A stretch of 20,927 bases of DNA from a virus. The stretch's first letter is position 1, and every line of letters begins with the position of its first letter. The position numbers and the translations under genes are program-made. The stretch lies in IMG/VR virus record IMGVR_UViG_3300037635_000489, positions 1 to 20,927 of that record. One strand, 5' to 3'. Positions 17,294 through 20,571 of this stretch are shown in pieces. The notes beneath the pieces are model-generated. The model ran no database searches, had not been told where the DNA came from, and saw only the letters and a program-made list of their open reading frames with translations.

Positions 17294-18256
17294 CTAGGTA
17301 AGATCGTAAACTGCACCGTGTCCTTTTTCGTTGTCCACCTGTAAGGTGTACTCAGCGATAATAGCACGTTGCTCACCGTCAGAAGTACTAGCGACTTCAC
17401 GGGTTGCAAACGGACGCAAGTAAGCGATCTTGTAGTACTCAGGATCAAGAAGCCATACATCCCTAGCCCGTTGGAAACGGTTAGGAACAACAGCCATCTC
17501 ACCAAAGTCGGATACATAGATATCCATACCACCGATTATACGTTGATCGGCAGTGTCGGTCCAGTTAGAAACACCGCTTGCTCCGCCTACACCTACAAAG
17601 CTAGAAAACGTCTGCTTCTTCGCAGGGGCCATCATCAAGTACTTAGTATCAGCACCGTTGTTGTAAGCAAGAAGAATCGTAGCTTTCAACAGTGTTTCCG
17701 TAAAGGCACGTTGCGTACCATCAGTACGAGCAGCACCCGCACCGCCAGAACCAGCCGCCGTACCACCACTACCAACACTGGCATTAGTGGTTATATAGGA
17801 GGCAAAAGAGCCAAGTTTACGAACAGTACTATCCGCAGACATAGCCGTTTTAGCTTGATTGGTTCCTATAAGAGAGGTTTCCATATCTCGCTTTAGTTCT
17901 TTAGCCCGTTTGGACATCTGGTAAGCAAGCTCTTCCTTACGACCAGCTTTAGACACGGCGTCTAACGTACCAGAAACCAGCGTAGTTTTCAAGCTGATCT
18001 GGCAGATATTACCAAGTCTAGTAGTTGCGGCAGGTTCGGCAGCAGTAAGCGTTGAACCTTCCTCGTTAAAGTTAGTAGCGGCAGCAGCAGTAAGAGCGTC
18101 TGTTTGCCACTCGTGATTTACAGCAGTGGCATCAGTCCGACCACCCATAGTCATAAAGGGCGTGTCTGTCGGAGAGATGTCGTATATTACGTTCTCAAGG
18201 TCTTCTCTAAGACCTGCTGAGGAGAATGTAACATATACTCCAGTAGGTTGTGCCAT
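17294..18256 (-). CDS. major capsid protein (HK97 fold, DUF5309/SU10-type)
   Basis: A 320-residue capsid protein. The opening, EDLENVIYDISPTDTPFMTM then NHEWQTDAL, matches the N-terminal pattern of DUF5309-type capsid proteins (an early 'I...I.p..TPF......+.....W' motif). Helical stretches with GRKEELAYQMSKRAKELKRD (about 118-137) suit the HK97 spine helix. A Gly/Ala-rich insertion lies near residues 160-180 (GSGGTAAGSGGAGAARTDG). The C-terminal part (REVASTSDGEQRAIIAEYTL) fits the final beta strands. Its ATG is preceded by AAAGG. It is flanked by scaffold upstream and a strong terminator downstream, the classic capsid setting. Family-level recognition is by memory of the motif. Confidence 0.88.
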   Translation of the reverse strand: MAQPTGVYVTFSSAGLREDLENVIYDISPTDTPFMTMGGRTDATAVNHEWQTDALTAAAATNFNEEGSTLTAAEPAATTRLGNICQISLKTTLVSGTLDAVSKAGRKEELAYQMSKRAKELKRDMETSLIGTNQAKTAMSADSTVRKLGSFASYITTNASVGSGGTAAGSGGAGAARTDGTQRAFTETLLKATILLAYNNGADTKYLMMAPAKKQTFSSFVGVGGASGVSNWTDTADQRIIGGMDIYVSDFGEMAVVPNRFQRARDVWLLDPEYYKIAYLRPFATREVASTSDGEQRAIIAEYTLQVDNEKGHGAVYDLT

Positions 18257-18284: not shown

Positions 18285-19253
18285 TTACACAAAATCAAGA
18301 AAGACCTTCGCACCATCACGAACATGACCAGTCTTTTTGAGTCTATCTCGTTTAGCTGTTAAAGCCTTACGAGACTTTTGTTTTTTAGACTCAGGTGTTC
18401 CAGATTTTACAACCTTGGGAACATTCTTTTTCTTAGCTTTGGAGGTTCCTTTAGTAGCTTTATCCTGTAGCATGGATTTGTATAAAACCATTACTACACG
18501 ATGGTCTGTAATGCCATCAACATCCTCTTTAGAGAATCCCAAATCTTTCATGGCATATTCTCTAAGTTGGTTTTTAACAGCAGGGTCAGCATACTCAGGA
18601 AGTGCTTGGACAAGTTTATCAGCTTCAGTTTCAACGTGTTTCTGCAAGTGTTCTGCGTACTCTTGTTGTTGCTGTCGCTGCACTCTTTGCTGCTCCACGT
18701 TTACTTGTTGCAGCTTATCCTTTGCATCTTGAAACTCCATTCTCTTTTCCATATATTCCATAGGATCAGATTCTTTCAACTCTTTCCAATCGACAGTGTT
18801 GAATTTCTGTAACTCCATGTTCTGGAATTGAGAAGCATTTTCCAAGACCTGTGTGTACTGCGACCTTTCCTGCTGAACGGCACTCAGGTTAGCTTCGTAA
18901 GCTTTCCTCTGTTCTGCTAGAGACTGTGACTTTCTCGTGTAATCCGATTGTCTCTGGTAGCCGTTTCGGAGTTCGTCAAGACTGACCTCAAATTCCTCAC
19001 CGTCAACTTTGACACTGTAGGAAGGCGGGGTTTCTTCAGGAACTTCCTCCTCTTCTACCTCTTCTTCAGAAACTTCATCCGATTCCTCTTCTGCTGAAAG
19101 TTCTTCAACGTCCGTATCTTCTTCTTCAGTTTCTACTGATGCTGGTTCAGGATTAGTGCTTTCTTCACTTCCAAACATGACATCATACATACTCAGTTGT
19201 CGATCCTCGACTTCCGCTTTTTCTTCTTGCGGATTGGTCTGATCTTCGTTCAT
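18285..19253 (-). CDS. capsid scaffolding protein
   Basis: A 322-residue, highly charged helical protein directly upstream of the capsid gene. Residues about 40-80 form an acidic Glu/Asp-rich tract (DTDVEELSAEEESDEVSEEE). A compact piece (SYSVKVDGEEFEVSLDELRN, about 80-100) is followed by long Gln/Glu/Arg coiled-coil helices (NVEQQRVQRQQQQEYAEHLQ). The end is strongly basic (KSGTPESKKQKSRKALTAKR). An acidic start, coiled-coil body and basic tail that can bind capsid subunits are standard for scaffolds. They guide procapsid assembly and leave the head. Position and composition agree, so the call is fairly secure. Confidence 0.85.
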   Translation of the reverse strand: MNEDQTNPQEEKAEVEDRQLSMYDVMFGSEESTNPEPASVETEEEDTDVEELSAEEESDEVSEEEVEEEEVPEETPPSYSVKVDGEEFEVSLDELRNGYQRQSDYTRKSQSLAEQRKAYEANLSAVQQERSQYTQVLENASQFQNMELQKFNTVDWKELKESDPMEYMEKRMEFQDAKDKLQQVNVEQQRVQRQQQQEYAEHLQKHVETEADKLVQALPEYADPAVKNQLREYAMKDLGFSKEDVDGITDHRVVMVLYKSMLQDKATKGTSKAKKKNVPKVVKSGTPESKKQKSRKALTAKRDRLKKTGHVRDGAKVFLDFV

Positions 19254-19265
19254 TACGTTCTCCCT

Positions 19266-19484
19266 TTAAGGATTTTCTATCTTGTCACTTTGTACTAGGG
19301 CATTTAGGTCTTCTGTAATAGAACGCAATGCGTCTAGTCGTAGCCAACAAGATTCTCTTGTTTCAGATGAATCGGCTAATTTCCATTCTTGGATAATACT
19401 ATTTTCCATCTTTGAAAGTAATTCTTGGAATACTTCATTGGTTAAAATAATATTAGCTTGAACAGCCCGTTCTCTTGTATTCAT
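19266..19484 (-). CDS. hypothetical protein (72 residues), helical, before the scaffold gene
   Basis: A helical protein coupled to the upstream basic-protein gene by TAATG (19486-19482). It runs AVQANIILTNEVFQELLSKM, then SIIQEWKLADSSETRESCWL, then LRSITEDLNALVQSD. Helix-turn-helix-turn-helix packing with Trp at two points resembles small proteins often encoded between portal and scaffold genes in podoviruses (recalled, not searched). There is no membrane or signal segment. Function unknown. Confidence 0.65.
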   Translation of the reverse strand: MNTRERAVQANIILTNEVFQELLSKMENSIIQEWKLADSSETRESCWLRLDALRSITEDLNALVQSDKIENP

Positions 19485-19630
19485 TAGCCTTTGCTGTTCC
19501 CCATGATATCGCCTTTGTAGTAACGATTACCGTGAGCCGTTACAGTTGGGAAGTTTTTATTCCCTGTATTACCGTGAGGTAATTTACGATTGCCTTTAGT
19601 TTTGGCAACACCTGTTCCACTATATTTCAT
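19484..19630 (-). CDS. small basic protein (48 residues)
   Basis: ATG 19630 overlaps the last 11 bases of the cysteine-rich gene in another frame. The stop at 19486-19484 shares its last base with the next ATG (TAATG). The product begins MKYSGTGVAKTKGNRKLPHG and carries many Lys, Arg, Asn and Gly residues with two HGN repeats (HGNTGN, AHGNRYY). It is basic and Gly/Asn-rich, so probably extended or nucleic-acid/capsid binding. The close coupling on both sides supports a real gene. No family is recognised. Confidence 0.7.
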   Translation of the reverse strand: MKYSGTGVAKTKGNRKLPHGNTGNKNFPTVTAHGNRYYKGDIMGNSKG

Positions 19631-19751
19631 TTTCTTCTGTCCTTTGGCAGCAGTTGCAAGGGTTATCTGTGTTGCACTCGCAAGGATCGCAAGCGCAGTC
19701 TGGGTTATTACACTTATGGTAATAGTCTTCCATTGGGATAGTGTAGCTCAT
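19620..19751 (-). CDS. 43-residue cysteine-rich, metallothionein-like protein
   Basis: The ATG overlaps the stop of the tail-fibre gene as ATGA (19751-19748), and the gene ends at TAG 19622-19620. Eight cysteines lie within 22 residues: Cys14, 19, 21, 24, 26, 32, 34 and 35, in KCNNPDCACDPCECN and NPCNCC. The C-x-C, C-x2-C and CC spacings, with almost no hydrophobic residues between, are those of a metallothionein that wraps Zn, Cu or Cd ions. Zinc fingers need fewer and more widely spaced Cys. His12 could add a ligand. The protein would act in the infected cell by holding metal or buffering oxidants, or be packaged. The coding call is good; metal binding is a strong but untested inference. 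Confidence 0.75.
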   Translation of the reverse strand: MSYTIPMEDYYHKCNNPDCACDPCECNTDNPCNCCQRTEENEI

Positions 19752-20236
19752 GTTTTAATCAAGAAGTTAATAGGTTGGTAGCTAAGAGTAGTAGACTCTG
19801 TTCCTATGGCCTTTGTCTGTGCCGTCCCTAAGACAAATCCAGTGCCAACTCCTATAGGTATATGCGCTCTAAAGTCTGGTACTTGTACATTACCACTAGA
19901 GGTTCCAAACACTGTACCTATCACTGCGTAAAGCGCAGAGTATGTTGTGTTGCTATACACACTACCATCGCAAAGTAGCCAATCTTTAACACCGCTGATA
20001 GTCTCTGTGGTAGGTGCTGTTCCTGAAGCAAACATCACTATAGTACCCACCTCAAAGCCAAGTTTGTTCATCTGTGCGCTAGTTTGCGTAACAGCCGTGG
20101 TAGCCAAGTTTGGAAACTGCGCTTTTAGTACTGATTTAACCAGCCGTACATGATCGTCACCCTCAGAAATGTTATCTCCAGCAGCAGGGTAAGCGGTATT
20201 TAGCTGGCTTATATATGTCGCAGATTCTACAGTCAT
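19748..20236 (-). CDS. tail fibre protein with phage tail-collar domain
   Basis: A 162-residue protein. The opening (YISQLNTAYPAAGDNISEGD, then DHVRLVKSVLKAQFPNL) is the common N-terminal tether of fibre proteins. Residues about 65-140 form a tail-collar domain: VGTIVMFASGTAP, DWLLCDGSVYSNTTYSALYA, VIGTVFG, VQVPDFRAHIPIGVG. In known relatives the fibre binds the host surface, here in a very short form. It overlaps the secreted-protein gene and the Cys-rich gene by ATGA junctions on both sides. The domain is clear; whether it is the main receptor-binding protein is not known, since no long fibre gene is in the window. Confidence 0.85.
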   Translation of the reverse strand: MTVESATYISQLNTAYPAAGDNISEGDDHVRLVKSVLKAQFPNLATTAVTQTSAQMNKLGFEVGTIVMFASGTAPTTETISGVKDWLLCDGSVYSNTTYSALYAVIGTVFGTSSGNVQVPDFRAHIPIGVGTGFVLGTAQTKAIGTESTTLSYQPINFLIKT

Positions 20237-20571
20237 GTTGGTTCACCTAGTTCTTTTAGTTCTTGTTCTTTCATAAGAGGGCCGTTTAAAATATTACCGT
20301 GATAGTTAGGAGCAGTGCAGTACTTACCAGTTAATCGGCTTTTAAAGAATACTGTAAAACTTCTGTCACTTTTGAAGAACCAGAGAGGTAGTCCTGTTCT
20401 GGTTATTCCTGCAAAGACTAGAGTTTGCCCCTTCTCTCCTGTCTCTTGTTCTACTTGCTCGTAAGAGCTTATGCAATACATATTACCTGTTTGAGCGTGT
20501 AGCGAGGTGTTCAGAGCTATGCTTGCCACTGCGAGAGAAGCTATGAATATTAAGGTTTGTCTAATCTTCAA
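20233..20571 (-). CDS. secreted hypothetical protein with signal peptide (112 residues)
   Basis: The N-terminus KIRQTLIFIASLAVASIALN has a basic start and a hydrophobic core followed by SLHAQ, a typical signal peptidase I site (cleavage probably after HAQ or HA). The mature part holds two Cys (YCISSYEQVEQETGEKG and GKYCTAPNYHG) that could form a disulfide, with a beta-rich centre (TLVFAGITRTGLPLWFFKSD). Export of a phage protein to the periplasm in the fibre cluster is unusual. It may act on the host envelope or exclude other phages, or simply be a moron-type gene. No family is assigned. Confidence 0.7.
   Translation of the reverse strand: MKIRQTLIFIASLAVASIALNTSLHAQTGNMYCISSYEQVEQETGEKGQTLVFAGITRTGLPLWFFKSDRSFTVFFKSRLTGKYCTAPNYHGNILNGPLMKEQELKELGEPT

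Follow-up and report, generated by a model that had tools for sequence, protein, structure and literature searches.

The window (the whole stretch of viral DNA analysed here, 20,927 nucleotides, IMG/VR record IMGVR_UViG_3300037635_000489) carries, amid the late structural genes of the phage, a minus-strand ORF of 43 codons followed by TAA (19751..19620; hereafter the Cys gene). Its product, MSYTIPMEDYYHKCNNPDCACDPCECNTDNPCNCCQRTEENEI, contains Cys at residues 14, 19, 21, 24, 26, 32, 34, and 35, that is, eight within 22 residues, spaced C-x4-C-x-C-x2-C-x-C-x5-C-x-C-C, together with one His and three Tyr, none of the latter inside the Cys core. The start of the gene overlaps the stop of the collar ORF (19748-20236) via ATGA. 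The genes of this region are the following:

17294..18256, minus strand: major capsid protein, used as a query for relatives (tblastn to annotated capsid proteins)
18285..19253, minus strand: head scaffolding protein (phrog_3927, E = 3e-66)
19266..19484, minus strand: conserved hypothetical gene, 72 aa, lower border of the variable slot (phrog_8161, E = 1.6e-7)
19484..19630, minus strand: gene for a basic, Gly/Asn/Lys-rich 48-aa peptide, downstream of the Cys gene and overlapping its end by 11 nt
19620..19751, minus strand: Cys-rich metallothionein-like microprotein gene, 43 aa, 8 Cys (orthologues at the same locus, pN/pS, family alignment A2)
19748..20236, minus strand: phage tail collar-domain protein, 162 aa, upstream gene with the ATGA overlap (Pfam PF07484, E = 3.9e-16; PHROG tail families)
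20233..20571, minus strand: probably exported 112-aa protein with a hydrophobic N-terminus, without significant family match

The Cys count and spacing given in a preliminary description of this DNA were reproduced exactly by translation of the ORF, and so were its 43 codons and the ATGA coupling to the upstream gene, which is the tail-collar ORF (PF07484, E = 4e-16). Since 0 of 500 Markov-shuffled windows contained eight Cys in 22 residues in any frame, the Cys-rich ORF is more than a product of chance. A second Cys-rich frame of the window, in the plus-strand ORF 18337-18732 and at about 18640-18732 within it, appears antisense to the Gln-rich scaffold gene and is a composition artefact; Cys-richness by itself is therefore no proof of a gene, and conservation was used instead.

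Relatives were fetched via their scaffold and capsid proteins, independently of Cys content. Five distinct Cys-gene sequences were found at the identical place (window/L213, L166/L214, L220/L222, L285, and L122/L215); L213, with 99.99% identity to the window over 8.3 kb, represents practically the same virus and did not count as independent evidence. The ATGA junction with the collar gene is present in all five orthologous lineages, and the Cys positions are kept in all five sequences, the sole exception being the last Cys of L122 (C to R); the proposed gene thus survived the check on whether relatives of identical gene order conserve its Cys. The pattern of synonymous and nonsynonymous change is likewise that of a coding sequence: for the five syntenic sequences, pooled pN was 0.18 versus a pS of 0.51 (0.15 versus 0.59 in the Cys core), differences at codon positions 1, 2, and 3 numbered 79, 37, and 129, respectively, and TGC and TGT were exchanged synonymously at Cys codons. 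The Cys gene is under purifying selection. In all five orthologues, the antisense frame is free of stops as well, as would be expected if the ORF were due to chance or if the real gene were the antisense one, but this openness results from the sense frame having no TTA, CTA, or TCA codons. As substitutions fall mainly on sense third positions, and as the sense ORF lies on the operon strand, has its start coupled to the collar gene, and is found again in unrelated phages, the probability of such a reading is negligible. The Cys ORF is a real phage gene, small, co-oriented, and conserved, and its composition and Cys spacing are metallothionein-like, which supports this part of the preliminary description.

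When used in tblastn, the major capsid protein matched annotated capsids of HTVC106P, Venkman, and LUZ24-like Pseudomonas phages, among others. The inspected relatives share the gene order collar, slot, (basic peptide), 72-aa gene, scaffold, capsid; the 72-aa gene is syntenic wherever their contigs cover it, and the 48-aa basic peptide gene is conserved both with and without the Cys gene. The slot is filled by the Cys gene in 7 of 63 capsid-anchored loci (five distinct sequences). In most relatives, its occupant is an 83-aa, highly conserved basic protein (p83; for example, L173:4324-4575 and L223:2968-3216), which ends in RYWSCKKW and has weak similarity to DUF5754; T4-like marine phages, Melnitz among them, also encode p83. 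Some relatives carry other small genes in the slot, and L168 and L169 contain neither the Cys gene nor p83. The Cys gene, being absent from the slot of most relatives of the window phage, is dispensable there, and close relatives without it retain the same head and collar genes. In the matched regions of Venkman, HTVC106P, ctnlZ23, Melnitz, and C48C1, no such gene was found near the matched genes. Functional displacement of p83 by the Cys gene was considered, p83 being missing from the contigs of the Cys lineages, but these contigs are fragments; because of this, and because L168 and L169 have neither gene, the slot was read as a cargo site. Phages of this genus carry the Cys gene as accessory cargo, the place between collar and scaffold being a variable slot.

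The window and L220/L222 are 85.6% identical over an uninterrupted stretch of DNA that spans the 112-aa gene, the collar gene, and most of the Cys gene, whereas the basic peptide, 72-aa, and scaffold proteins encoded downstream of it are 38–58% identical; it thus seems that the Cys gene travels together with the collar module. The 112-aa protein (20233-20571, minus strand) is 97–100% identical in L214 and L220, compared with 38–90% for the adjoining proteins, which suggests either recent exchange or strong constraint.

The Cys peptide belongs to a family with the conserved core Cx4CxCDPCECTx4CxCC, usually plus one further Cys upstream, and the consensus MaCxNeeCknpdCtCDPCECTeenPCxCC. A first strict Cys pattern had returned mainly antisense or low-complexity frames, with four hits in the family. 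The seed-based search (five-member seed alignment and CDPCEC[TN] seed; tblastn similarity required, Cys beyond the seed not required) yielded 36 viral and eight genome loci, four of the latter being convincing (three Verrucomicrobiota MAGs and one Dehalococcoidia MAG). A loose pattern (six Cys, one D/N, and one P) matched at least 120 stretches, the expectation from base frequencies being ∼0.2 per 1e11 strand-bases, a yardstick and not the measured collection size. Among the matches listed were 110 distinct ORFs of less than 80 aa, located on IMG/VR phage contigs with few cellular exceptions; the peptides among these listed matches are 21–64 aa long (median 35), are mostly without His, have a net charge mostly between −5 and −9, and in 78 of the 110 ORFs lack any aromatic residue. 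Exactly nine Cys occur in 81 of the 110 listed ORFs, a count that the search pattern partly dictates; less biased evidence comes from the orthologues at the locus and from additional Cys lying outside the pattern. The Pro of the core is invariant, and the Asp and Glu are near-invariant (P23, D22, and E25 of the window peptide; alignment A2). The member at L129 (MACTNEECKNPDCTCDPCECTEKNQCVCCK) has nine Cys, and a single contig, L137, carries two family copies. In L372 and related loci, a variant has an N-terminal hydrophobic segment (MKKKIILITLSAVAALHFGLVATGTCLNPKCTCDPCRCGLVCFCDGEDCKCPKC...), which suggests that this form is exported or anchored in the membrane.

With more than 100 distinct phage peptides, the family was previously unnamed, and standard gene annotation misses it because of its small size. 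There was no family match in Pfam, NCBIfam, PHROGs, or the PDB, and tblastn of the peptide against named phages and plasmids, in which low-complexity filtering may mask such queries, gave nothing useful. The carriers may be called marine-type, judging from their Pelagibacter and Methylophilales phage relatives and from Synechococcus-phage-like genes in some contexts. From bacterial genomes, the family is almost absent: among 188 genomes from the class to which one verrucomicrobial carrier belongs, a profile search matched that carrier alone, so that the family is mainly viral in the searched collections. Rare chromosomal homologues (MSEEPTKCSNPDCECENCTCDPCECTKGNPCACG) are found in the Verrucomicrobiota MAGs of L157, L158, and L161, in the first two upstream of the same conserved gene. 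A cellular origin was considered, but the cellular homologues found were rare, in Verrucomicrobiota and Dehalococcoidia MAGs, and transfer may have gone either way.

In 193 of 207 cases, the nearest neighbour of a family gene has the same orientation, and at least eight unrelated gene neighbourhoods were distinguished. Apart from some unidentified ones, the neighbours comprise NadR/cytidylyltransferase, SNase, NifU/IscU, IscA-type Fe-S carriers, PhoH, Hsp20, M15 peptidase (a zinc-enzyme family), DUF1353, single-strand binding protein, and collar/scaffold genes. Fe-S genes (NifU/IscU and IscA) adjoin family members in at least two arrangements: in IscA-NifU-CYS, NifU immediately precedes the family gene, and in NadR-CYS-SNase-NifU, it is the second gene after it. 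None of the labelled neighbours is present in 45 of 110 contexts among the matches listed. Because related phages share their contexts, those of one lineage cannot count as independent, and the neighbour genes are no more than suggestive. The lack of a constant partner gene favours an autonomous small protein and disfavours a virion-specific role.

A second group of phage-borne peptides, micro-family B, was also observed (20–23 aa, nine Cys, for example MKCNCKVCNCGTSCDCTCCNC; about 80 distinct sequences), at L023:14041-14103, L037, L065, and L112 and on at least 120 viral contigs (loci L417-L529). Like the CDPCEC family, its members have nine Cys, a C-x-C-x2-C-x-C start, and CC near the end, but their spacing is different and the CDPCEC core is absent. 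The coding signal is clear (Ser codons alternating between TCN and AGY, four Gly codons in use, and fixed start and stop positions), and Shine-Dalgarno sites are few in the carrier phages. The gene is often followed by one with a weak FAD/NAD oxidoreductase match. In 41 loci (for example, L505, L512, L518, L422, and L517), a hairpin is located 14–23 nt past the stop, with a covarying 5-bp stem (GACTG/CAGTC, GTCCG/CGGAC, GTTCG/CGAAC, GATAG/CTATC, and others) and the invariant loop ATTCATAGC; six loci scanned gave no Rfam match, and the examples read contained no T-run.

With nine Cys in about 30 residues, a peptide has as many ligands as an M3Cys9 domain. Because the ligand number of the family matches a three-metal cluster and its spacing is shared with SmtA, we infer a metal-thiolate peptide; judged by composition, metal binding is most likely, and the peptide might, at a further remove, buffer or shuttle Zn, Cu, or Fe in the host cytosol. 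The cargo gene would thus probably encode a soluble, metallothionein-like metal buffer or chaperone of the infected cell with a single metal-thiolate cluster. The peptide would fold around metal ions as one such cluster, by analogy M3Cys9 in the usual nine-Cys members and an eight-Cys version in the window phage, and would take up Zn(II), Cu(I), or Fe that becomes free or is required in the late phase of infection; alternatively, the benefit might consist in blunting metal and thiol-oxidant stress. In either case, it would act autonomously, without a fixed partner. The low-confidence apo fold predicted by AlphaFold (pLDDT 64) is as expected for a metal-folded peptide, which is compatible with this proposal but no proof of it.

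The invariant Pro and near-invariant Asp and Glu leave room for a docking role, since conservation of D22, P23, and E25 exceeds the needs of a pure metal sponge. The CDPCEC core could then be a structural zinc knuckle through which a host-takeover microprotein docks on host polymerase, protease, or a defence factor, and genes for host interaction are typically spread over unrelated phages and variable slots in this way. A density of eight Cys in 22 residues is, however, far above that of known zinc knuckles, there is a single C-x2-C and no paired knuckle, and the sequence beyond the core varies freely without a confident predicted fold, which makes host takeover unlikely, if worth keeping in mind. 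Delivery of Fe-S or Zn to phage metalloproteins (Fe-S enzymes made by NifU/IscA, a zinc M15 endolysin, or metal sites of the fibre tip) would agree with NifU, IscA-type carriers, and M15 peptidase adjoining several loci and with the Cys gene travelling with the collar module in this genus; it is quite improbable given that the peptides have no ferredoxin-like or scaffold Cys motif, that the 45 listed contexts show none of the labelled neighbours, and that contexts of one lineage are not independent. The location between collar and scaffold and the ATGA coupling to the collar gene would suit two further suggestions of the preliminary description, that the virion stores metal or that the peptide supplies Zn for its assembly. 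This part found no support: structural genes are not adjacent in most homologues, for which reason virion storage was rejected as the main reading, and close relatives without the gene keep the same head and collar genes, so that a virion-associated metal store or fibre assembly factor is very improbable.

What is new here is an unnamed phage family that is metallothionein-like by composition. Metal economy in phage infection is little explored, and if the peptides bind metal, phages own a dedicated, common tool for it. Tentatively, and with about as much against as for it, aquatic phages may commonly carry metallothioneins, in at least two unrelated, unannotated micro-families (CDPCEC and the 20–23-aa, nine-Cys peptides) that would have been acquired by phages differing in translation signals and would control the Zn, Cu, and Fe-S economy of the infected cell. 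As the CDPCEC peptides are small enough for synthesis, the question of metal binding is directly testable. The open-access literature searched for phage metallothioneins contained nothing relevant.

The bacterial metallothioneins SmtA, BmtA, and PmtA (Metallothio_Pro; PDB 1jjd, 6gv6, 6gv7, and 6grv) are small and Cys-rich like the phage peptides. Common to both is the motif C-x-C-[DE]-P-C-x-C (CACEPCLC in SmtA, PDB 1jjd; CACDPCEC in the phage peptide), the C-x-C-x2-C-x-C stretch C19-A-C21-D-P-C24-E-C26 being aligned to KCACEPCLC of SmtA. The C-terminal zinc-finger half and the His ligands of SmtA/BmtA are absent from the phage peptides. SmtA and BmtA have a zinc-finger-containing Cys9/His cluster (PMC7387436) and a length of about 50–80 aa; solved members have 52–81 aa, and the window peptide, with 43 aa, eight Cys, and one His, falls outside this combination of length and cluster. 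Pfam, searched with five family members to a cut-off of E = 10, gave no match, nor did it for the window peptide; NCBIfam gave none either, and hhalign of the family against SmtA aligned 12 columns at a weak 27% probability. By profile, the family thus lies outside SmtA/BmtA. The sole PDB match of its profile, not significant at E = 0.16, was fish metallothionein MT_nc (1m0j), a vertebrate metallothionein beta-domain with a local DPCEC...CNC match; this resemblance most likely reflects convergence, and the below-significance profile similarity to known metallothioneins in general could stem from convergence or composition. The Cys spacing of the window peptide (C-x4-C-x-C-x2-C-x-C-x5-C-x-C-C) also differs from the ferredoxin-type [4Fe-4S] motif C-x2-C-x2-C...C. 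Phage zinc-ribbon and zinc-knuckle proteins, such as a 58-aa neighbour in L129, are small and have Cys-based metal sites as well, but with few, separated C-x2-C pairs, whereas Cys makes up one third of the core in the Cys family, which shares with metallothioneins in the broad, compositional sense its small size, its Cys-richness, its C-x-C, C-C, and C-x2-C motifs, and its few aromatic residues.
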